From Chryseobacterium sp. G0162 (GTDB lineage Bacteria; Bacteroidota; Bacteroidia; Flavobacteriales; Weeksellaceae): a stretch of 64,000 nucleotides of DNA. Positions within the stretch are counted from its first letter, which is position 1; each line of letters starts with the position of its first letter. The notes under the pieces were generated by a model. It saw nothing but the letters and a program-made list of their open reading frames with translations. It had not been told where the DNA came from and ran no database searches. Both the position numbers and the translations under genes were made by a program. Where the stretch lies: positions 4,078,001-4,142,000 of the forward strand of contig NZ_CP033922.1 in NCBI RefSeq assembly GCF_003815715.1. Direction: 5' to 3'. Positions 6,501-60,679 of the stretch are shown here, in pieces.

Positions 6501-8487
6501 TCCTACACAGACAGGACAGACAGCAACTTATAATAATCTGCCACCAGGAACATACACCTTTACAATGTCAATGTTTGCGCCATCATATCTTTATCCTCCT
6601 TGTACGATTACAAAAACAATTACTTTGGCACCGACTCCTAGTACGGATTTCTTACTTCCGGCTATTGCATGTAAAGGAGAAGCGATTAATCTTTCGCCTG
6701 TGTCATATACTTCTGGAAATACTTACACATGGTATTTTGATGGAACAGCTTTTATTACTTCACAGCCAGGTTCGGTGGTTACATTTAATACTACCGGAAC
6801 AAAAACTGTAAAACTGGAAGTTAGGACTCCACAGGGATGTGTTTATACCTCTGCTACCGTTAATATTATGGTAAAAGATGCTAATTTTACTGGAAATATT
6901 CTTCCATTAAGTGCTGTTGCATGTGAAGGAAGTGCTCCGGTAGTGTCCTTTTCGCCGATAGGTACAGCACCGTCAGGTTATATTTGGATGAATGGCTCTC
7001 AGCAAGTACCTGGAGCTCCTAATTCAATGAGCTTTGTTCCTACGCAATCAGGAAGCTATTGGCCAATATTAATATCACCGGAAGGATGTAGATCTAATAT
7101 CATGAGCGAAAAAGCGGTGCCTATTACGATCAAAAAACCTCCGTATGTTAGTATTTCAGGACAAACAAATATTTGTTCAGGAAGTTCAGCAATACTTAAT
7201 GGTATTGTGACAGCTAATAACTTAGAGTACAGATGGAAGAAAAATGGTGCTCCAATTGGTACACTATGGTCTAATACCTTCCCAATTGTTTTCAATACAG
7301 GAGCGTTGTCTGCAGGTACTTATACCTTTACGTTAGAAGTACGTAGCCCTGGAACAACAGATTGTACTTCATCCAAAGACTTTATCGTAACTGTAAGCAA
7401 TCCGCCAGCACAGCCAACAATAACGTATACTCAAATAGAATGTACGCCGTATAAGGTGAAATTAACAGCATCTGGACCGGCGAATGGAGAGTATAACTGG
7501 AGCAATGGAATGACAGGACAAAGCATTGTTGTAGGAGAAGGAGGCGTGTATAAAGTGATATATACAGCTCCGACTGGATGTAAAACAGATAATGAAATAG
7601 CTGTACCATTAAGCATTGAAAGCCTTATGTGGGTGTTCCCTACAGGTTGTTATGATTACTGTAGAGATAAACAACGTTATGTACTGGGACCAAAAGGTAC
7701 TTTCGATTATCATCAATGGGAACTTTTTGGAACATCGCTTCAAAATGGAACCAATGATATCATTTATCCGTTCTATTATGTAAGCAGTGCAGGAACTTAT
7801 AGACTGAAAATTGAACAGAACATGCCATCAGGGCAAAAATGTGAATTCTATTCAGGACCATTGAACTATTATCCAGGCAAAGACTGTGGAGTAGAGACAC
7901 AATGTGACGTTGACGTTAAGATCGAAGCCTTCAAATGGGATGGAGATCATTATAATGTTCATGGAATGATATACAATAACGGTGGAATGCCGATCATGCT
8001 TAACATTTCAAGTCTTAATGGATACGGAACTTATTTACCATCTATGATTACCATTCCGGCAGGAGGTACTTATGATATGAATAGCAATCCATTGATGTTC
8101 TATCCAAATGCAAACTTCCCTGGAGGGACTGATGCAATCCTATTCATGGGTCAGGAAGACTGTAAATTTGTTGCTGAGCCACAGATTATAGGTAAACCTA
8201 GTATTGCCAATGCAGGAAAACCAAGTCTTACGACAGCGTCTTCTCTGAAATTGATGCCAAATCCAGCAAAGGATATCGTGAAGGTTTCATATAATACCGG
8301 TAATGAGAAATTGCCGGCAACACAGATCAAAGTTTTTGATACTATGGGGAATGTTAAATTCCATAAAGAACTGAAGTCATCTTCAGGAGAAGTGAATGTA
8401 GATGTCTCCAACTGGTTGCAGAGTACGTATATCGTTATTGTGCAGGCAGGAGAAAAATCATTGCAAGGCAAATTGATTAAAAATTAA
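3577..8487 (+). CDS. Large secreted PKD/Ig-like repeat adhesin with type IX sorting domain
   Basis: About 1636 residues from the ATG at 3577. An in-frame ATG at 3550 adds nine residues, but the second start leaves a normal signal peptide ending at 'WGLQAQ'. A PKD domain lies near residues 150-240 ('YFWDFGDGTTST', 'NHTYTSAAGL'). The rest is a string of roughly 80-100-residue Ig/PKD-like modules. Many open with a 'vCxG/CpG' turn and carry Cys pairs, for example 'SVVCTGRQYTYS' and 'DVVCTGRPYVYS', which suggests internal duplication. The last 80 residues ('LKLMPNPAKDIVKVSY', 'VFDTMGNV', 'GKLIKN') form a Por secretion (type A) C-terminal domain. The protein should therefore be exported by the type IX system and anchored at the cell surface. 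An adhesion or matrix role is inferred. Confidence 0.82.
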   Translation: MKNITYLSRQHVFRWLLLCWLLVPWGLQAQSSTHVTWDSQVGCQVHRGEKGNGDNSVAAASVETGTCIRVCENSNVTYTVHGSNILNVQWTSAGGTVQSVSGASNTQAIIAWGAAGGGFVHAVIQFFDGTTETQNICIEKINKPIPNFTVLNMKDRVCKNTEVHFQNLSQANGGSDIVNYFWDFGDGTTSTAFEPNHTYTSAAGLTVSLTVTNKCGCSETVSQKLEILESPPVQINCASVVCEGSVEKYSVLNGCKGDWKVIGGTLLNNYGNEIEVRWDQVDPEDGFGYVMYKSECGCPEWTTVKIPVILKAAKIKGQSVVCTGRQYTYSLPQWPTTSVDWDVTGPGLGELTYNQQRNEILFKATVPGTYTLTSKYFNTLMLCGGEAAKKIVVEQPVTISGGTPEICVGTSQTFTASPNVPVIWNVTLDGGVVYTSPQPISVPFSYNFATPGTYIVTAVKAGGGCESQGILVNVVAPPKPPKGPIIGDDVVCTGRPYVYSIGLTPANVIPVWTVTNGTIIGSNAGNSISVVFDTGFPTFSVSVRYRTLGQAGCLSSAITKNIKAVDLNKVSIVQNMGPFCPSSTQNFSAVLGNIVPDSMEWSFDQPNFGSFSSGQGTANIVVNINEVSGGVYDTNLNLKIVKCGQVKIISMPIKKMALPVINFTNVGKICPGSDLNFTINQGGITTATSVTFTFANGSHTENFNQFGTYSFPNNGYIQNNTGGNVSQVVTVTINGANSCSYKPTASANFIILPETIITVSPVYNLQVCDSQPLAPYTLTANSSTGLTNILEWQWYKDGLPLNGFTTNSYTLSGVGLAGTYQVRAKDINGCYVYSQEIKVTNACPTGNNCTTPPTVYFAAEWTDCNKITVNSFSVNNTPDQIEWVSNNILTIINGQGTTSPEFQTNLAGAHIVSVRLRYGTCWYSTSIEVRKHYEPKFEISQTCNGNGYNVTLYNTSTIFDINPNAIVYKFSSPGLPTQTGQTATYNNLPPGTYTFTMSMFAPSYLYPPCTITKTITLAPTPSTDFLLPAIACKGEAINLSPVSYTSGNTYTWYFDGTAFITSQPGSVVTFNTTGTKTVKLEVRTPQGCVYTSATVNIMVKDANFTGNILPLSAVACEGSAPVVSFSPIGTAPSGYIWMNGSQQVPGAPNSMSFVPTQSGSYWPILISPEGCRSNIMSEKAVPITIKKPPYVSISGQTNICSGSSAILNGIVTANNLEYRWKKNGAPIGTLWSNTFPIVFNTGALSAGTYTFTLEVRSPGTTDCTSSKDFIVTVSNPPAQPTITYTQIECTPYKVKLTASGPANGEYNWSNGMTGQSIVVGEGGVYKVIYTAPTGCKTDNEIAVPLSIESLMWVFPTGCYDYCRDKQRYVLGPKGTFDYHQWELFGTSLQNGTNDIIYPFYYVSSAGTYRLKIEQNMPSGQKCEFYSGPLNYYPGKDCGVETQCDVDVKIEAFKWDGDHYNVHGMIYNNGGMPIMLNISSLNGYGTYLPSMITIPAGGTYDMNSNPLMFYPNANFPGGTDAILFMGQEDCKFVAEPQIIGKPSIANAGKPSLTTASSLKLMPNPAKDIVKVSYNTGNEKLPATQIKVFDTMGNVKFHKELKSSSGEVNVDVSNWLQSTYIVIVQAGEKSLQGKLIKN

Positions 8488-52527: not shown

Positions 52528-54786
52528 CTATTTCAACGTAAACTTTATTTTTGTTTTGATGGCATCCGAAGAATTACCCATTAAAGCTTCAAAGTCTCCC
52601 GGTTCTGCTACCCAATCGTGTTTTTGAGCATCAAAGAAACTTAATGCAGATTTATCGATGGTGAAAGTCACTTCTTTTTGTTCTCCAGGGTTTAAATAAA
52701 CCTTTTCAAAGCCTTTTAATTCTTTGGCAGGGCGTGGAACAGATGATTTCAAATCGCTGATGTAAAGCTGCGCAACTTCGGCTCCGGCTTTTTTTCCTGT
52801 ATTTTTAACGGTTACCGTAAAAGTAATAGTATCGTTCTGTGATAAACTTGTTTTATCTGCTTTTGCTTTTCCAAATTCAAATGTGGTATAGCTTAATCCA
52901 TGTCCGAAGCTGAAAAGAGGTTTAATGTTTTTGGTATCATGCCAGCGGTATCCTACAAATACACCTTCGTTGTAAGTGATATTGATCGGGTTTTTCTGAT
53001 CTTTTCCTTTTCCTGCAGCCAATTCATCTTTCTGACCAGGATATTCTCCAAGTTGATGAGCTGAATTATCTTCAAGCTTTACAGGGAAAGTAAACGGAAG
53101 TTTTCCTGATGGGTTGGCATCACCTGCTACAATAGAAGCAATAGAATTTCCAGCCTCAGAACCCAGATACCATGCCTGTAAAACTGTTGGTACCTCTTTA
53201 ATCCAAGGCATGGCTACTGCATTTCCTGAAACTAAAACTACAGCCAGATTTTTGTTAGCTTTAGCTAATGCTGTAATCACATTATCCTGGTTGTAAGGTA
53301 ATCCATAGCTCTTTCTGTCATTTCCTTCACTGTCCTGGAAGTCTGCTTTGTTTAATCCGCCAACGAAAATTACGTAATCGGATTTTTTTGCTAATTCTAC
53401 AGCTTCATTGATTAGTTCCGCTTCAGAACGGGTGTCTTTCAGGTCCTGTCCGGATTTTACCCCGTTGTACTCTCCACCAATGTCACCTACATACCCTCTG
53501 GCATATTGCACATCAGCTTGTTTTCCAAATCTATTTTTGATTCCGTCTAAAGGAAGAGTTTCATATTTTACTTTTAAGGATGAAGAACCACCGCCCACAG
53601 TCATAATCTTGATGGCATTCTCACCAACAACAGCAATTCTTTTAGCCTTATTAACATCGATTGGAAGTATATTTCCCTGATTTTTTAACAGAACAATTCC
53701 TTCTTCCCCGATTTCTTTAGCTACAGCTTTATGTTCTTCAGAAGCGATATTTCCGAAAGGTTTATTTCGGTTCATTGTCGTTTTGTAGGCAAGACGAAGC
53801 AGTCGGGTTACCTTATCATCAAGTTCTTTAGTTCCTACTTTTCCTGCTTTAATCAGGTCAAGATATGGTTTTGCCAGATAATAATTATCATAGGCATTTT
53901 TGGTTCCGGCAGAAAGACCATTCGTCCATGATCCGAATTCAAGATCCAATCCGTTATGGATAGCCTGCTCAGTATTGTTAACAGCACCCCAGTCGGAAAC
54001 CACTACACCTTTATAATTCCATTCTTTTTTCAGAATATCATTTAAAAGGTATTGATTCTGGCTGGCATACTGACCTTTATACATATCATAAGCGCCCATA
54101 ATCGTCCACGAATCTCCTTCTGTCACTGCTGCTTTGAATGGAGGCAGGTAAATTTCATATAATGTTCTGTCATCTACATTTACATTGCTGGTATGGCGGA
54201 ACATTTCCTGATTGTTCAGGGCAAAGTGTTTAACAGAAGTGGCTACCCCATTAGATTGTACCCCTTTGATATAAGGAACTACCATTTTTGAGGTCAGATA
54301 AGGATCTTCACCCATATATTCAAAGTTTCTGCCATTTAGAGGAGTTCTGTAAATATTGACACCTGGGCCCAATAGAATATCTTTCTTTCTGTAACGGGCT
54401 TCTTCTCCCAATGCTTTACCGTAGTTCCAGGACATTTTTTTATTCCAGGTAGCTGATAAGGCGGTAAGGGCAGGGTAGGCGATAATGGAGTCGTTGGTCC
54501 ATCCGGCTTGATCCCATTCGTCCCACATGACTTCAGGACGTACCCCATGAGGGCCGTCAGTCGTCCAGAATTCAGGAATTCCTAATCTTGGAACACCGGG
54601 AGAACTGAATTTTGACTGCGCATGCAGCATAGCTACTTTTTCTTCCAGGGTCATTCTGGAAAGGGCATCCTGAATACGCTGTTCTACAGGTTTTGATTCA
54701 TCTAAATAAATGGGAGTAGTGTTCTGGGCCATATAAGAAACAGAAATAAAGGTGAATAGACTTACAATGGCGGTTTTCTTTAACAT
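52528..54786 (-). CDS. bglX: Beta-glucosidase, glycoside hydrolase family 3
   Basis: 752 residues, close to the 765 of E. coli BglX. A signal peptide ends 'FISVSYMAQ', so it is periplasmic. The GH3 barrel contains 'GIPEFWTTDGPHGVRPE', 'KHFALNNQEMFR' (the K-H pair) and 'GVVVSDWGAVNNTEQAIHNG', whose Asp in S-D-W is the nucleophile. The second domain has 'EEGIVLLKNQGNILPI'. The C-terminal fibronectin III-like domain is 'KNTGKKAGAEVAQLYISDLK'. It removes terminal beta-linked glucose or xylose from oligosaccharides. It is alone in its unit, without a SusCD pair nearby. Confidence 0.93.
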   Translation of the reverse strand: MLKKTAIVSLFTFISVSYMAQNTTPIYLDESKPVEQRIQDALSRMTLEEKVAMLHAQSKFSSPGVPRLGIPEFWTTDGPHGVRPEVMWDEWDQAGWTNDSIIAYPALTALSATWNKKMSWNYGKALGEEARYRKKDILLGPGVNIYRTPLNGRNFEYMGEDPYLTSKMVVPYIKGVQSNGVATSVKHFALNNQEMFRHTSNVNVDDRTLYEIYLPPFKAAVTEGDSWTIMGAYDMYKGQYASQNQYLLNDILKKEWNYKGVVVSDWGAVNNTEQAIHNGLDLEFGSWTNGLSAGTKNAYDNYYLAKPYLDLIKAGKVGTKELDDKVTRLLRLAYKTTMNRNKPFGNIASEEHKAVAKEIGEEGIVLLKNQGNILPIDVNKAKRIAVVGENAIKIMTVGGGSSSLKVKYETLPLDGIKNRFGKQADVQYARGYVGDIGGEYNGVKSGQDLKDTRSEAELINEAVELAKKSDYVIFVGGLNKADFQDSEGNDRKSYGLPYNQDNVITALAKANKNLAVVLVSGNAVAMPWIKEVPTVLQAWYLGSEAGNSIASIVAGDANPSGKLPFTFPVKLEDNSAHQLGEYPGQKDELAAGKGKDQKNPINITYNEGVFVGYRWHDTKNIKPLFSFGHGLSYTTFEFGKAKADKTSLSQNDTITFTVTVKNTGKKAGAEVAQLYISDLKSSVPRPAKELKGFEKVYLNPGEQKEVTFTIDKSALSFFDAQKHDWVAEPGDFEALMGNSSDAIKTKIKFTLK

Positions 54787-54809
54787 ATTGCCTTTTTAAT
54801 GGATTGAAG

Positions 54810-54842
54810 CAAAAATAAACAAAATTTTTATATTATCTCAAA
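54810..54842 (-). promoter_or_regulatory. Bacteroidota-type promoter of the beta-glucosidase gene
   Basis: On the minus strand a -33 tttg (54842-54839) and a -7 tatttttg (54817-54810) are 21 bases apart, 24 bases before the ATG. Confidence 0.5.
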
Positions 54843-54866
54843 TTGAGAAAATAAATTTTGAAACAT

Positions 54867-54897
54867 AAAAAAACTGCCTACAAAATTGCTGGCAGCT
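54867..54897 (-). terminator. Intrinsic terminator at the end of the methionine transport operon
   Basis: On the minus strand ctgcc, 12-base loop, ggcag, then T7. It lies about 180 bases after the metQ stop. Confidence 0.65.
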
Positions 54898-55074
54898 TGT
54901 TATTTATTGGAAGGTAGAAATCTGTTGGGAGAGATTTGTAGATAATAGACTGAGAGATGCAATATTTGATGTCAATAGTCAATTTTGCTTCGCAAGTGAA
55001 TCGTTAATTAGGAGTGAAGGGATAACGATCTTGAACTTTAAACCTCGCACTCTACTTCTCAATCTTCAGGCTCA

Positions 55075-55881
55075 TTACCATCCTTTCACAGCTCCTCCTT
55101 TGAAAACTTCCAGGGCTTTCTTTTCCACTTCATCAGATTGGTAAGCTTTAACAAAGTTTTTTACCTTCTGGCTGTTCTTATTATCCTGTCTTGCCACGAC
55201 AAGGTTAACATAAGGAGAGTCTTTATCTTCTTTAAATATACCCTGCTTTTCTGAATCCAATCCGGCTTGTGCAGCAAAATTATTGTTGATGATTCCTACT
55301 ACAACATCTCTGTCATCCAAAACCCTTGGGATCTGTGCTCCTTCAATTTCCATAATTTTCAGCTGTTTTGGATTTTCAGTAATATCGGTAACCTTTGGAA
55401 GCAATCCAACCCCTGCTCTTAGTTTCAGTAAACCGTTTTTCTGCAATAGAAGTAAGGAACGTCCACCATTGGTAGGGTCATTGGGAATAACAATAGTGCT
55501 CCCATTTTGTAACTGGTTAAGATTGTTAATTTTCTTTGAATAAGCTATAATAGGGTAGACAAACGTATTTCCTACAATAGCAAGATTATATCCTCTTTGT
55601 TTTGATTGTTCGGTTAAATAAGGAGCATGCTGAAAAGCATTCACATCAATATCTCCATTCATCAAAGCTTCATTGGGAACAACATAATCATTGAAAGGAA
55701 TCAGCTCCACTTCAAGGTTGTATTTTTCCTTTGCTACTTTTTTAGCTACTTCAGCCACTTCCTGCTCTGGTCCATAAGTAATTCCCACTCGGATAAAGTT
55801 CGGATCATCTTTTCTTCCTGAACAGGCACTGAAAAGAAGTACTCCAGCAGCGATTAAACCTAAAATTTTTATTTTTTTCAT
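55075..55881 (-). CDS. metQ: Methionine ABC transporter substrate-binding lipoprotein MetQ
   Basis: 268 residues. The lipobox is 'GVLLFSACSGRK'. NlpA/MetQ family features are present: 'RVGITYGPEQEVAEVAKKVA', 'ELIPFNDYVVPNEALMNGDI', 'DVNAFQHAPYLTEQSKQRGY' and 'IPNDPTNGGRSLLLLQKNGL', all in the usual order. It captures methionine (often the D form too) in the periplasm and hands it to the MetNI transporter encoded just upstream in the same operon, with a 99-base gap after metI. Full length. Confidence 0.95.
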   Translation of the reverse strand: MKKIKILGLIAAGVLLFSACSGRKDDPNFIRVGITYGPEQEVAEVAKKVAKEKYNLEVELIPFNDYVVPNEALMNGDIDVNAFQHAPYLTEQSKQRGYNLAIVGNTFVYPIIAYSKKINNLNQLQNGSTIVIPNDPTNGGRSLLLLQKNGLLKLRAGVGLLPKVTDITENPKQLKIMEIEGAQIPRVLDDRDVVVGIINNNFAAQAGLDSEKQGIFKEDKDSPYVNLVVARQDNKNSQKVKNFVKAYQSDEVEKKALEVFKGGAVKGW

Positions 55882-55980
55882 TCTATTCTTTTTAATTTGT
55901 AAAGAAGTTAAAATAGTAAAATCACAAAAGCAGCGTTCGTTTATTTATTCTCCTTTACTCAAAAACTCTATTACTTCAAC

Positions 55981-56637
55981 TTATCTATGGTCAAACCTCT
56001 TAGAAAGTCTATCTCCCATAAACTGGATGATAAAAACCAAAAGTACTAGTAAGATCAATACCGTATTCATAATCACAATATCATAACCGATATATCCATA
56101 CTGGTATCCAACCTGTCCTAATCCACCGGCACCTACAGCACCACCCATCGCAGAATACCCTACTAATGTGATTAATGTAATGGTTGCATTATTAATCAAT
56201 GAAGGAAGTGCTTCCGGAAGTAAAACCTTTCTGATGATCTGAAAAGGGGAAGCGCCTAAGGCTCTCGCTGTTTCTATTAATCCGTGAGGAACTTCGATAA
56301 GGCTGTTTTCAACCAATCTTGCAATAAAAGGGGCTGCTCCCACACTTAATGGAACCAATGCTGCATTGACTCCAATGGAGGTTCCCGCTAAAACCCTTGT
56401 AAAAGGGATCATCCACACAATTAAAATGATGAACGGGATCGCTCTGAAAATATTGACAATAATGGATAATGCTCTGTAGTAGATCACATTTTCTAACAAC
56501 TGTCCTTTTCTTGTTAAAAATAAGAGAATTCCAACGGGGAGCCCTAAAACAAATCCAAAAAATCCGGATACGAATGTCATATAAATTGTTTCCCAGGTTC
56601 CTTTTGCCAAAAGGGCAAGTACTGCATCACTAAGCAT
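55981..56637 (-). CDS. metI: Methionine ABC transporter permease MetI
   Basis: 218 residues with five membrane helices. The coupling-helix motif 'IETARALGASPFQIIRKVLL' is the EAA loop that docks on MetN. 'NIFRAIPFIILIVWMIPFTR' and 'GAVGAGGLGQVGYQYGY' are typical for MetI. Start and stop overlap metN by eight bases, so the two are translationally coupled. It forms the homodimeric membrane channel for methionine. Confidence 0.95.
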   Translation of the reverse strand: MLSDAVLALLAKGTWETIYMTFVSGFFGFVLGLPVGILLFLTRKGQLLENVIYYRALSIIVNIFRAIPFIILIVWMIPFTRVLAGTSIGVNAALVPLSVGAAPFIARLVENSLIEVPHGLIETARALGASPFQIIRKVLLPEALPSLINNATITLITLVGYSAMGGAVGAGGLGQVGYQYGYIGYDIVIMNTVLILLVLLVFIIQFMGDRLSKRFDHR

Positions 56638-57658
56638 ATCCTTTTACTGTATTTTGAATTTTGTTCTGATTAAAATAATAGATGGCCTTCTGGTTTTCCT
56701 CAGCCTCTCCTTGAAGTTGCAAAAGTAGTTTACCAAAATTAGAATTCCCAAAATATTCTACATCTGCTTTCAAAAGTTTGTAAGGGATTTTATGTTCATT
56801 GTATAAGGCTGAAAGAATCTGTTCAACACTTATGTTTTCGTTAAGTTCTATTTCGACCAATGGAAATAGACCTTCCTGAGGTTCTTTCTGTAGCCTGGTA
56901 TTGAGTTCCTGTGGCAGGGTCATGATGTCTGAATTTATAAATTGTTGGATCACCGGATTTTCCCGGTTTGAAATGATCTCACTTAATGTTCCTTTAGCTA
57001 ATAGTTTTCCTTTGTCTATCACGGCAACGTGATTACAAACAGCTTTAATGACTTCCATTTCATGGGTAATCAGAAGAATAGTAATTCCTAATCTCACATT
57101 AATATCCTTTAGGAGCTGTAAAATAGATTGGGTGGTAACCGGATCCAGTGCACTGGTGGCTTCATCACAAAGCAACAGGTGAGGATCATTGGCTAAAGCC
57201 CTTGCGATGGCCACTCTTTGTTTCTGTCCTCCGGAAAGGTTTCTTGGGTAATCATGGGCTTTATCTTCAAGGCCAACAATCTTCAGTAATTCGTTGACCT
57301 TTTTATTGATTTGATCTTTGCTGATGTGGTCCAGCTCCAGAGGAAGTGCTACATTATCAAAAACAGTTCTTGAAGAAAGAAGGTTAAAGTGCTGGAAGAT
57401 CATTCCTATTTTTTTACGTTCTTCAGCAAGCTGCTTTGAACTTAATTGGGTGAAATCCTTTCCATTAATAATGATCTGCCCTTCATCCGGTCTTTCCAAC
57501 AGATTAACGGTACGGATCAGGGTACTTTTTCCGGCACCGGAGAAGCCTATGATACCTACAATATCTCCTTTATCAATGTTGAGGCTCACCTGGTCCAATG
57601 CCTTAAATGCCTGCTTCTTCTGATGGAATGTTTTTGATATGTTTCTGATTTCTATCAT
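56630..57658 (-). CDS. metN: Methionine ABC transporter ATP-binding protein MetN with NIL domain
   Basis: 342 residues. Walker A is 'GFSGAGKSTLIR', the signature 'LSGGQKQRVAIARAL', Walker B 'LLLCDEATSALD' and the switch His 'LLITHEME'. The last 80 residues ('PLVEIELNENISVEQILSAL', 'KLLKADVEYFGN') form the NIL domain, which binds methionine and shuts the transporter off when the cell is replete. It starts 18 bases after the stop of the EamA gene, which places both in one operon behind the leader described at 58764-58862. Confidence 0.96.
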   Translation of the reverse strand: MIEIRNISKTFHQKKQAFKALDQVSLNIDKGDIVGIIGFSGAGKSTLIRTVNLLERPDEGQIIINGKDFTQLSSKQLAEERKKIGMIFQHFNLLSSRTVFDNVALPLELDHISKDQINKKVNELLKIVGLEDKAHDYPRNLSGGQKQRVAIARALANDPHLLLCDEATSALDPVTTQSILQLLKDINVRLGITILLITHEMEVIKAVCNHVAVIDKGKLLAKGTLSEIISNRENPVIQQFINSDIMTLPQELNTRLQKEPQEGLFPLVEIELNENISVEQILSALYNEHKIPYKLLKADVEYFGNSNFGKLLLQLQGEAEENQKAIYYFNQNKIQNTVKGYA

Positions 57659-57676
57659 TCTGATGTTTTATACTAT

Positions 57677-58675
57677 TTAAATAGGCTGATATCTTTTGCC
57701 TGCCCTGTTAAAAAATCTTCTAACTCTTCTGATTTTGACCTTAGACCGTTTGGAAAGCTTGAAATACTTGGTGACATTGGTCAGCAATACTCCCAGCAAT
57801 ATGATTGTCAAACCATATAACTGGCCTCCATTGATACTTTGATTAGCCACAATCCATCCTGCAATAACCGTAACAATAGGGTTAATGTAGGTATGGGTAC
57901 TTACCAATGCAGCGGGTTTCACGGACAACAGCCAAATGTACGACAAATAAGCGACTATCGATCCAAAGAAGATCAAAAACAGAACACCTGCCCATGCTGA
58001 TACAGGCACGTTTGAAGCGGAAAAATGAGTCCATTCTCCTCTGAATAAGGCAATAAGAAAAGCCGCTACTCCTGCTACAATAAGCTGCTGGGCAATATTC
58101 ATAAAGGTAGAATGTGAGGCTGGATTTTTCTTGGAATATAGAGAACCTAAAACCCATGCAATAGAACTGAATCCCAATACTACAAAAGCAGTAATCCGTA
58201 ATTGAGGATCAGCAGAAGCATGTGCCGCAGTAGAGTTTACACTTCCTTTTAAGAAGAATATCAATCCTACGAATCCAATCATCAGACCTATCGGAATAAA
58301 CTTATCTGAAAAATAGTATTTCCAGTTTTTTCTATCGATGGCAATGAACCAGAAGGGTCCGGTGGCAATAGAGATTGCAGCTTCTGAAGCTGTTACATAC
58401 TGTTCGCCCCAGGCTACAAGACCTGTTCCTCCGGTAAGGATAAGAACTCCGGTAATGGCATTTTTCTTCCAGTTGACCAGAGAATTTGCTTTTTCCCCTT
58501 TAGACAATAAATACCCCATCATCAAAACCCCTGCTACCAGAAATCTCAATCCCGAAAGAATGAACGGAGGAAAACCTTTCAAGCCAAATGAAATAGCTAA
58601 AAACGTAATCCCCCATATTACATAAATGTTTGTAAATGCCAATGGAACCAGCCATTTGTTTTTAGAATTGCTCAT
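57677..58675 (-). CDS. EamA/DMT family transporter, first structural gene of the methionine operon
   Basis: 332 residues, about ten membrane helices, in two EamA repeats ('YVIWGITFLAISFGLKGFPP' and 'GSIVAYLSYIWLLSVKPAAL'). A basic C-terminal tail follows ('KRSKVKIRRVRRFFNRAGKR'). Family members (RhtA, YdcZ-like) export amino acids and metabolites or act as uptake permeases. It lies between a methionine-rich leader peptide with terminator and metN, so methionine or a sulfur compound is the most likely substrate. That is inferred from context. EamA genes are not usual parts of met operons. Confidence 0.82.
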   Translation of the reverse strand: MSNSKNKWLVPLAFTNIYVIWGITFLAISFGLKGFPPFILSGLRFLVAGVLMMGYLLSKGEKANSLVNWKKNAITGVLILTGGTGLVAWGEQYVTASEAAISIATGPFWFIAIDRKNWKYYFSDKFIPIGLMIGFVGLIFFLKGSVNSTAAHASADPQLRITAFVVLGFSSIAWVLGSLYSKKNPASHSTFMNIAQQLIVAGVAAFLIALFRGEWTHFSASNVPVSAWAGVLFLIFFGSIVAYLSYIWLLSVKPAALVSTHTYINPIVTVIAGWIVANQSINGGQLYGLTIILLGVLLTNVTKYFKLSKRSKVKIRRVRRFFNRAGKRYQPI

Positions 58676-58710
58676 TTTTATTTTTTTTAATGTTTTGGTT
58701 TTAAATAAAA

Positions 58711-58736
58711 AAGGCCCTACAACTTGGTAGGGCCTT
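58711..58736 (-). terminator. Leader terminator (attenuator) before the EamA-metNIQ operon
   Basis: On the minus strand aaggccctac, 6-base loop, gtagggcctt, then a T-rich run. It lies between the leader ORF stop (58764) and the first structural ATG (58675), that is inside the operon's 5' leader. The upstream arm can instead pair with bases 58769-58760 (see finding). Confidence 0.88.
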
Positions 58737-58763
58737 CAAAAGTATGTCATATTAAAAGTAAGG

Positions 58764-58862
58764 TCACCCACAGTATTCTTGATGCACAGGCATACACATA
58801 TCCTTCATCATGTTTTTAATGATGTATTTATGAGTTGCATTATTCTTTGTTATTGTGCTCAT
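58764..58862 (-). CDS. Methionine-rich leader peptide, 32 residues
   Basis: The ORF runs ATG (58862) to TGA (58764). It reads MSTITKNNATHKYII, then KNMMKDMCMPVHQEYCG. Residues 18, 19, 22 and 24 are Met, four of seven codons, far above chance. The ATG follows a -7 element (tatatttg, 58896-58889) by 26 bases. A strong T-tailed terminator follows the stop by 28 bases, and then the EamA-metN-metI-metQ genes start. This is the layout of a ribosome-mediated attenuation leader: a ribosome slowed at the Met codons would leave the segment around the stop codon free to hold the terminator open. The peptide itself probably has no other function. Too short for usual gene calling. Confidence 0.72.
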   Translation of the reverse strand: MSTITKNNATHKYIIKNMMKDMCMPVHQEYCG

Positions 58863-58888
58863 TTTATTTTATTTCCTGAATACGTCTG

Positions 58889-58896
58889 CAAATATA
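58889..58896 (-). promoter_or_regulatory. -7 promoter element (tatatttg) of the leader and methionine operon
   Basis: Exact TAnnTTTG on the minus strand. Transcription would start near 58884, about 20 bases before the leader ATG. No perfect -33 TTTG, only a T run near the expected place. Confidence 0.5.
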
Positions 58897-59157
58897 TAAT
58901 ATAATTTCTATTAGTCTACTAAAAATGTAGGGTTTTTGAATATTAAATTATTATTAACTGTTTAACTTGCTGTTTTTAAATTGTTTAGTCTTTTTGTTTT
59001 TTTCTATTTTAAGCTGTTTTGAATATGGCTTTTTCATTTTAAATTCATTTTCCATTGAGATTTCCGGTTTTTTACGTTGTAAGAAAAATAAAATAAATTA
59101 AAATTTTTAAGAATTGTATAAAATGGGATTTCAGCATAACACTTTATCTTCATGATA

Positions 59158-59177
59158 AAAAGAGTTGGCTCTCAACT
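59158..59177 (-). terminator. Terminator-like hairpin on the minus strand
   Basis: On the minus strand gagttg-agagc-caactc followed by T5. It would end any transcript leaving the MarR-operator region leftwards, but no gene lies there. Confidence 0.4.
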
Positions 59178-59237
59178 CCTATGATTCCTGTAAATTTTAA
59201 AATAGTTTTCATTTTTAACAATATTTATGATTAGACA

Positions 59238-59255
59238 TTAATGACTAGTCATTAA
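59238..59255. promoter_or_regulatory. 18-bp perfect palindrome, probable MarR operator
   Basis: ttaatgactagtcattaa is fully self-complementary. It overlaps the -7 element taaatttg (59253-59260) of the SDR-marR operon, so a bound repressor would block the promoter. Size and symmetry fit a MarR dimer site, and a MarR gene is in this operon. Confidence 0.6.
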
Positions 59256-59295
59256 ATTTGAAATATCAATTTTATTAATTTTAAAAAGAATCAAT

Positions 59296-60043
59296 ATGAA
59301 ACGTTTTGAAAACAAAGTTGCTTTTATTACAGGAGGAAATTCAGGAATTGGGAAAGCTGTGGCTGTTTTAATGGCAAGAGAGGGAGCGAAGGTTGTTATT
59401 GCCGACCTTAAAGAGAACCGGGAAACCCTGGAAGAAATTCTGAAAGAAGGAACCGACGCAAAATTTATTGCATGTGATGTATCGAATCATGAAGAAGTGG
59501 AAAGTTAATGAAACGATAGAGGCGTTCGGAAGTTTGGATATAGCGGTTAATAATGCAGGAATTGTAGACGCATCTCCTGTTCATGAAAAGACAATAGAAG
59601 AATGGCAGAAAGTTCTTAATATCAATCTGAGCGGGGTGTTTTATGGAATGAAATATCAGATTGCCCAGATGAGAAAACAGTCAACAGGTGGGGCTGTTGT
59701 GAATATGGGCTCTATCATGAGCCAGGTTGCTGAATTCGGAATTGCTTCGTATGCTTCATCAAAACATGGGTTGGTAGGCCTTACCAAAGTAGCTGCGTTG
59801 GAAAACGGAACTCATAATATTCGTGTTAATGCGATTGGTCCGGGATATATAGAAACCCCTTTGTTAATGGACAATGCAGCACAAAGTACAGAGTACAGAT
59901 CTTATATGGAATCTAAACATGCGATGAAAAGATTGGGAAAACCCGAGGAAATTGCAAAAGCTGTATTATTTTTGGCATCAGATGACGCAAGTTTCTGTAC
60001 AGGAGCTTATCTTCCGGTAGATGGAGGTTATCTGATACAATAA
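59296..60043 (+). pseudogene. Short-chain dehydrogenase/reductase, frameshifted
   Basis: Two overlapping frames together make one SDR of about 248 residues. Frame one (59296-59508) carries the NAD(P) motif 'TGGNSGIGKAVA' and the acidic 'VVIADLKENRE', and hits TAA at 59506. Frame two (from about 59503 to 60043) continues without loss: 'NETIEAFGSLDIAVNNAGIV', catalytic Ser in 'NMGSIMS', Tyr-x-x-x-Lys in 'YASSKHGLVGLTK', 'NAIGPGYIETPL' and the end 'GAYLPVDGGYLIQ'. The break lies within gtggaaagttaatg. Its frame change of +1 fits loss of about five bases between short agtt repeats, or gain of one base. All catalytic residues survive, so the change may be recent or a sequencing error. MarR is downstream. 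Confidence 0.82.
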
Positions 60044-60056
60044 TTAAAATAAAGAA

Positions 60057-60494
60057 ATGAAAAAAATAAAAGCGGGAGATCTTCCACTTCGAAGACAGCT
60101 GGGAATTACCATGGTGGAAACATATCATCATGTATATGAAAAATCGCAAGAGTTTTTTGCCGGTTATGGGCTTACTTCCCAGCAGTATAATGTGCTTTCG
60201 ATCCTGCATGATGCGGGCCAGCCATTATCTACTTCTGCCATTTTGAAAAAGATGTTAGAGAAAAACGCAGGAGTATCCAGACTGGTAGACCGATTGATTC
60301 TAAAAGAATTGGTTGAAAAAAGTGTGAATACAGAAGATAAACGCCTGATAGATGTTGCACTTACGAAAAAAGGAAATTCTTTATATAAAAAAGTGACTGA
60401 CCATCTAGCGGGGGTAGATGATGTGTACAATGCATTGACAGATGAAGAAACAGAAACTCTGATCCGCCTTTTGGAAAAAATGAGAAAAATTTAA
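60057..60494 (+). CDS. MarR family transcriptional regulator
   Basis: 145 residues, standard length. The winged helix covers 'LTSQQYNVLSILHDAG', 'LSTSAILKKMLEKNAGVSRL' (recognition helix), 'VDRLILKELVEKSV' and the wing 'NTEDKRLIDVALTKKGNSLY', all in order. It starts 13 bases after the SDR stop, so it is in the same transcript. The palindrome over the shared promoter at 59238-59255 suggests repression of the SDR gene and of itself, relieved by a small aromatic or phenolic ligand as is usual for MarR. The ligand is not known. Confidence 0.92.
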   Translation: MKKIKAGDLPLRRQLGITMVETYHHVYEKSQEFFAGYGLTSQQYNVLSILHDAGQPLSTSAILKKMLEKNAGVSRLVDRLILKELVEKSVNTEDKRLIDVALTKKGNSLYKKVTDHLAGVDDVYNALTDEETETLIRLLEKMRKI

Positions 60495-60679
60495 TCTCAA
60501 ATACAGGATCTGAAAAGAAATGAATTGAATAATTTTTTAAATCATTTGTGATGTTTTTTTTGTTTTGAAAAAAATAATTTTGTTTTCATTAAACTAAAAG
60601 GAAGGTAGAAAAAATAGATGCTGCGGTTTTTTAGTGGAAAATATATTCGGTTATTAAATTTCATAAGATTCTTTTCTAC

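Follow-up and report, generated by a model that had tools for sequence, protein, structure and literature searches.

The EamA-metN-metI-metQ operon of Chryseobacterium sp. G0162 is preceded by a candidate ribosome-mediated transcription attenuator with Met and Cys control codons, a reading of the sequence to which we assign a probability of about 0.8. The window, that is, the whole stretch of DNA analyzed here, is 64,000 nucleotides long, and the elements of the proposed attenuator and its operon lie on its minus strand as follows:

58911..58931, minus strand: operator-like palindrome CCTACATTTTTAGTAGACTAA, covering the -33 region.
58889..58896, minus strand: -7 promoter element TATATTTG, of the Bacteroidota type TAnnTTTG (from sequence and relatives).
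58862-58764, minus strand: leader peptide ORF MSTITKNNATHKYIIKNMMKDMCMPVHQEYCG, 32 codons plus TGA (from sequence and ORF list).
58791..58811, minus strand: putative control codons Met18 (58811-58809), Met19, Met22, Cys23 (58796-58794) and Met24 (58793-58791).
58760..58771, minus strand: 5' half of the putative antiterminator, GTGGG-TGA-CCTT, with the stop codon inside, assigned by its pairing with the 5' terminator arm.
58737-58710, minus strand: predicted intrinsic terminator GAAGGCCCTACCAAGTTGTAGGGCCTTT-TTTATTT, whose 5' arm (from 58736) is also the putative 3' half of the antiterminator.
58675-57677, minus strand: EamA-family transporter (Pfam PF00892, E 9.4e-29).
57658-56630, minus strand: MetN-like ABC ATPase with NIL domain (TIGR02314, 445.5 bits against a cut-off of 499.7; PF09383).
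56637-55981, minus strand: MetI permease (NF008049, 378.4 bits, cut-off 212).
55881-55075, minus strand: MetQ substrate-binding lipoprotein (NF008285, 398.8 bits, cut-off 374).

A preliminary description of this DNA had placed the promoter, the 32-codon ORF, the terminator and the EamA-metN-metI-metQ order at these positions, and sequence, ORFs, Pfam and NCBIfam bear all of them out. Pfam and NCBIfam concur on the operon, except that MetN falls under the strict equivalog cut-off, and the nearest relatives of the window's EamA are from Chryseobacterium. The promoter assignment applies TAnnTTTG, the Bacteroidota -7 consensus, to TATATTTG at 58896-58889 (minus strand). The leader peptide carries Met at residues 1, 18, 19, 22 and 24, and Cys at residues 23 and 31; the two Cys residues had gone unmentioned in the preliminary description.

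The leader recurs beyond the window. Among the best 80 of 100 EamA relatives together with the window itself, a unit of leader ORF plus terminator was present at 78 of 81 loci; it was missing at L049, where the contig ends inside the gene, and at L077 and L078, whose EamA genes stand without any leader. Units were identified by a mechanical scan that looked for a short ORF with a terminator after it, followed by hand corrections: 86 were found automatically, two (L069, -303; L079, -541) were dropped because they do not qualify as Met/Cys leaders, and three more were entered manually (the first unit of L066, with a GTG start, and the second units of L073 and L074, the last comprising only the final 19 codons of a longer open frame), giving 87 units in 78 loci. 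The distance from stop codon to stem was 24–27 nt in 66 of the 86 automatically found units. A conserved stop-to-terminator layout had been proposed earlier as a check by alignment, and its recurrence in 78/81 loci is more than chance would give.

Gene context varied within narrow limits. The order EamA-MetN-MetI-MetQ was found in 69 of the 80 relatives' loci, and EamA-MetN-MetI in one more that meets a contig end; EamA stood alone in 10, L066 being one of them owing to a contig end. At two of these solitary EamA loci, the next gene either encodes an amino-acid permease nearest BcaP (L072, a Flavobacterium MAG; 565.5 bits versus a cut-off of 690) or has no match to any NCBIfam model (L068). 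The leader also stands directly before metN, in L118, L120 and L121 of the genus Chryseobacterium and in L138, L142 and L143 outside it; L138, L142, L143, L118 and L120 had not been used in forming the idea and display the identical arrangement. A leader located before EamA or straight before metN is tied to transport genes, not to one gene. In a fourth MetI locus outside the genus (L144), the contig ends inside metN and the leader region lies off it. Two records are noted on their own account: in L069, a Bacteroidetes MAG, a peroxiredoxin gene (6635-7270; NF009668, 215.8 bits, cut-off 211) lies between EamA and metN, and in L063, a record named Glaciecola amylolytica, the operon proteins are 73–80% identical to those of the window, so the name probably misfits the sequence.

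Within the genus, 140 of 148 sampled genomes carry the leader, 133 as matches to a leader-peptide profile and 7 by eye. MetI was looked for solely in the 15 genomes lacking a profile match: the 7 with MetI all bear a leader recognizable by eye, one of which (L204) has lost the 5' part of its ORF at a contig end, and in the remaining 8 nothing scored as MetI above the cut-off. Run against 395 genomes of the phylum, the profile hit 14, 7 in the genus and 7 outside; the outside hits, at E 0.00397 or worse, lie by eye in unrelated sequence, indicating that the profile misses the majority of distant leaders. A search of the window's genome for paralogous leaders returned only the known one. The scan likewise recovered no Met/Cys-like leader with terminator at PALP, Cys/Met-PLP and PAPS-reductase-family genes of that genome (L096-L114), loci that reach only 1.5 kb past the match, so that the leader of a longer operon, lying ahead of its first gene, would escape.

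Codon-level conservation points to translation of the leader ORF. In the 48 of 65 Chryseobacterium-type leaders that have 32 codons, compared in pairs differing at no more than 35% of sites, pn/ps was 0.48 in frame versus 0.85 and 0.72 in the other two frames. The second half of the ORF had a ratio of 0.40 and the first half one of 0.60; some selection thus acts on the N-terminal half as well, which attenuation would not require. In the 65-leader alignment, the 128 gap runs within the ORF (counted as runs and not as independent events) are without exception 3 or 6 long, and the spacer often has runs of 1, 2 and 4. In-frame selection and gaps in threes constitute good but indirect evidence that the ORF is translated and, with the 133/148 profile matches, rule out a chance ORF. 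Loss of the ORF or of its Met codons in close relatives, which the preliminary description would have taken as contradicting its proposal, was absent: the ORF and at least one internal Met codon persist in each of the 65 aligned Chryseobacterium-type leaders, that of the window among them.

In-frame selection would also be expected of a stable small Met/Cys-rich protein, for example a metal-binding one, encoded ahead of an ordinary terminator, and Met/Cys-rich motifs do bind copper in other proteins. Such a protein predicts neither the pairing of the stop region with the 5' terminator arm nor a Met/Cys cluster at a set distance from it, and we regard it as very improbable. To a known riboswitch or T-box we give next to no credence: a SAM riboswitch does exist elsewhere in the window's genome (L083), but the ORF described here is under in-frame selection, and Rfam returned no match at gathering threshold in the window, eliminating both a SAM riboswitch and a T-box as candidates.

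The placement of Met and Cys codons indicates what the leader would sense. In a zone 15–36 nt before the antiterminator half, picked after the distances had been seen, 42 Cys and 42 Met codons occur among 152 codons from 21 representatives; both residues are present there in 21/21, and the observed Cys or Met count was attained in 0 of 5,000 codon-order shuffles. None of the other residues is clearly enriched in this zone. Among the 32-codon Chryseobacterium leaders, M18, C23 and M24 occur in 48/48 and M19 in 47/48, but M22 in 7/48; the four internal Met codons claimed by the preliminary description are all present in the window, and one of them, Met22, is not conserved. Cys codons match Met codons in number and in precision of placement, which makes the label "methionine" too narrow. 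The attenuation logic behind that label is strongly backed by conserved ORF, codon placement, terminator and between-genus complementarity, but the restriction to Met is not, and the Met-only reading was rejected on the codon counts. A bivalent sulfur-amino-acid (Met + Cys) attenuator is the best reading of the comparison, the simplest version being that shortage of either sulfur amino acid would stall the ribosome at one place.

A narrower form of the attenuator explanation, overlapping with it, supposes that Met only or Cys only sets the response and that the other residue is carried along. The operon encodes a methionine-type transporter and the leader's run of Met codons hardly varies within Chryseobacterium, as expected for Met; a Cys codon lies 16–32 nt before the antiterminator half in 18/18 representatives, as expected for Cys. 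Both are equally enriched at the same place; neither residue alone explains the other, and we consider a single-amino-acid attenuator unlikely. Distinctly improbable is an arrest peptide, in which the nascent Met/Cys-rich chain would stall the ribosome on Met, SAM or another ligand, as do TnaC and the plant arrest peptide CGS1. The stall site would then be unchanged, and a MMMxCCMP core does appear in the majority consensus of 37 leader peptides; however, beyond the start, conservation in that alignment reaches 90% in no column, and stalling at high Met would turn an importer on when Met is plentiful.

The Met + Cys attenuator further calls for an alternative pairing that excludes the terminator. 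As the preliminary description had pointed out, 58769-58760 (GGG-TGA-CCTT) is complementary to 58736-58730 (AAGGCCC), and the duplex between the antiterminator 5' half and the 5' terminator arm amounts to -11.1 kcal/mol in the window. Over 60 distinct Chryseobacterium-type rows, 96.2% of cells are paired in the register GTGG/CCAC plus CCTT/AAGG, part of which is replaced by GGG/CCC in the window. No covariation was detected in the antiterminator inside Chryseobacterium (no cell changed on both sides, and shuffles do as well), so that pairing there is inseparable from sequence conservation.

Comparison between genera yielded a clear signal. For 18 divergent representatives, chosen by similarity <0.72, the summed duplex of stop region and 5' arm was -196.0 versus -127.7 (sd 11.2) for permuted partners, with 0 of 50,000 permutations as good; for 23 representatives it was -241.8 versus -163.4 (sd 12.4; 0/50,000), and for 21 representatives including newly fetched loci -224.9 versus -146.8 (sd 12.0; 0/100,000). 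Six units joined this last analysis, from which L121 was left out as near-identical to L120. The first permutation test, run with two later-dropped units in and the three hand-added ones not yet included, gave 0/20,000. Stop regions therefore fit their own 5' arm better than the arms of other genera, despite unrelated sequences. With the 3' terminator arm as control partner there was no gain, 48,937 (18 set) and 46,005 (23 set) of 50,000 permutations being as good or better, and pairing of the stop region with the 3' arm was accordingly discarded as an antiterminator in these two sets. Single representatives vary: the mean z was -2.1, with z above -1 in 4/21, and the best-pairing 20-nt window lay within 12 nt of the stop in 14/21 (5.4 expected) and elsewhere in 7. 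Among the six new units, shuffled stop regions were as good in 328 of 1000 trials for the second unit of L142, in 88 for L143 and in 56 for L138. The sequences contain a putative antiterminator over the stop-codon footprint, mutually exclusive with the terminator, with weak cases among them.

The stem of the window terminator has 11 pairs if a closing G-U is included and 10 by Watson-Crick pairing only. Scanning 54500-60500 gave 6 terminator-like sites, of which this one is the longest; shuffled sequence yields 4.4 (sd 2.1), and the terminator scan alone is consequently no evidence. Across the 60 distinct Chryseobacterium-type rows, 98.5% of its cells are paired and 27 carry a compensatory change, all at a single pair. 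Compensatory changes in both stems, the second check proposed earlier, were thus seen for the terminator at that one pair but not for the antiterminator inside Chryseobacterium.

Partition functions were calculated for the leader RNA with a 27-nt ribosome mask; passages of PMC13236596 assume a footprint of ~26 nt. In this model, a ribosome on M18–M24 or C23 left the antiterminator at a mean pair probability of 0.54–0.55 before the 3' arm was made, and a ribosome on the stop codon or C31 reduced it to 0.00. With no ribosome the value was 0.54, as likely as with a stalled ribosome. Hairpins inside the ORF appeared in the predicted fold and had no effect of the trp 1:2 protector kind on the antiterminator in this model. 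In the complete leader with its 3' arm, the terminator won wherever the ribosome sat (0.94–0.99). Because completion of the 3' arm makes the terminator thermodynamically favored, the switch has to be kinetic, and its outcome would depend on the order and pace of events.

The sequence and comparison layer of the model comprises the ORF, codon placement, terminator, alternative pairing, conservation and tandem copies; from it we infer where transcription starts, that the ORF is translated, that the ribosome stalls and so senses tRNA, in which direction the operon responds and what the transporter carries. RNA polymerase probably starts ~20 nt before the leader ATG, and the ribosome would follow. 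When charged Met- and Cys-tRNA are ample, the ribosome would reach the stop codon and cover GTGGG-UGA-CCUU, the terminator would form and the operon would be off. When either tRNA is short, the ribosome would stall at Met18-Cys23-Met24, 19–37 nt upstream of the antiterminator half, and the freed half could pair with the emerging 5' terminator arm, pre-empting the terminator and allowing transcription of EamA-metNIQ. Tandem units, with a separate ORF and terminator for each, occur at 9 of 78 loci (L062, L066, L068, L071-L074, L076 and L079) and at L142, one of the two units having been added by hand at L066, L073 and L074; read-through at tandem loci would need two stalling events.

Upstream of the leader, a palindrome within 3 mismatches of TCTACTNNNNNAGTRGACTAA occurs in 65/65 Chryseobacterium-type loci (within 2 in 63) and lies 14–15 nt before the -7 box in 64/65. 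The -7 box itself was found in 64/65, in 47 of them 26–27 nt before the ATG. In the Flavobacterium-type loci L068, L071-L074, L076 and L079, a -7-like box lies 7–10 nt before the first leader ATG, so that the leader mRNA would be nearly leaderless. Searching the window's genome for TCTACTNNNNNAGTRGACTAA with up to 2 mismatches gave 14 matches versus 11 for a reversed control, which makes single palindrome sites weak evidence; the 14 correspond to 10 distinct places because palindromic sites are hit on both strands. Sites lie at G000:C1:775244, 2061547, 3294436, 3421938 and 4206332. One-mismatch sites include those at L083, where a SusC-like gene (by eye) follows a SAM riboswitch (by Rfam), and at L084, with a peroxiredoxin-like gene (by eye); another site precedes a 103-aa small protein (L085, by eye). 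The palindrome sites may possibly mark a sulfur regulon.

A second Met/Cys-rich short ORF, ending in MCFESMMCKMMML, lies before a SusC-like gene (by eye) at G000:C1:4205891-4206281 on the minus strand (L092/L168) and is preceded by a two-mismatch palindrome site. Similarity to it at the DNA level was found in 55/148 genus genomes, its own included; the ORF is kept in 18/19 fetched relatives, with the end MCFxxMMCKMMM exact in 13. Downstream of it are a hairpin CCTCC..GGAGG and a T-run, with no standard terminator by eye. On the opposite side of the same palindrome, a structured-looking leader (by eye; L093, ~1700-1820) precedes an adenosine-deaminase-like gene and has no Rfam match at gathering threshold.

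On the broader picture we are evenly divided: a Met/Cys attenuator family may span several Bacteroidota families, shortage of either tRNA opening the operon and tandem copies acting as two independent stalls with a steeper or AND-type response, and in Chryseobacterium it may lie under a sulfur-type palindrome common to the SAM-riboswitch locus and to a second Met/Cys leader ORF before a SusC-like receptor.

The known forms of methionine control are chiefly riboswitches, T-boxes and repressors, and a bivalent Met + Cys leader, if true, would be a further solution. To our knowledge, transcription–translation coupling in Bacteroidota is not settled. In classical attenuation the ribosome has to follow the polymerase closely, which makes the Met/Cys leaders a ready in vivo test of coupling in this phylum; the attenuator family, if true, would imply tight coupling in Bacteroidota, where translation starts without Shine-Dalgarno pairing. 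Thanks to the tandem copies, one attenuator can be compared with two on the same gene in natural loci.

Leader-peptide attenuation in Flavobacterium and Bacteroides is already suspected, so the class is known and the Met + Cys form is the variant. In passages of PMC9723704, such attenuation is proposed upstream of amino-acid biosynthesis operons of Flavobacterium psychrophilum, with structured 5' elements before pheA, hisG and others, and passages of PMC7366714 describe short ORFs "reminiscent of leader peptides" in 5' UTRs of Bacteroides thetaiotaomicron; these leaders have their phylum in common with the present one. The words "methionine" and "eamA" are absent from the main text of PMC9723704, and the parts of these two papers that were covered contain no Met/Cys leader or metNIQ target. 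Nor did the open-licence literature, in the portions covered, yield a Met or Met + Cys leader or any leader before metNIQ, an absence that is correspondingly weak.

Elsewhere, portions of PMC2965389 treat his leader peptides in Firmicutes, and portions of PMC1262725 treat leader-peptide attenuators of trp and ilvB in Actinobacteria as well as actinobacterial Cys leader ORFs, which have runs of Cys close to the stop and for which no conserved terminator was detected. Mycobacterial polycysteine ORFs are cited in PMC13236596, which names them translation attenuation. These Cys leaders are likewise short ORFs with Cys codons before sulfur genes; the present leader differs in containing Met as well, together with an intrinsic terminator and an antiterminator that overlaps the stop. 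The mycobacterial class (Cys only near the stop, no terminator hairpin) was rejected for the present leader, which has Met codons and a terminator. Tandem attenuators are described for Salmonella mgtCBR in PMC3641672, with two short ORFs in one leader as here; that operon serves a Mg2+ transporter, whereas the present tandems are two similar Met/Cys modules with their own terminator each. The trp, his, phe, thr and ilv attenuators of Proteobacteria share the short ORF, control codons, intrinsic terminator and antiterminator over the terminating ribosome's footprint. In contrast to them, the leader described here has Met and Cys codons, a transporter operon as its target, a bacteroidotal host and tandem copies at some loci; no protector effect like that of trp 1:2 was seen in its folding model.
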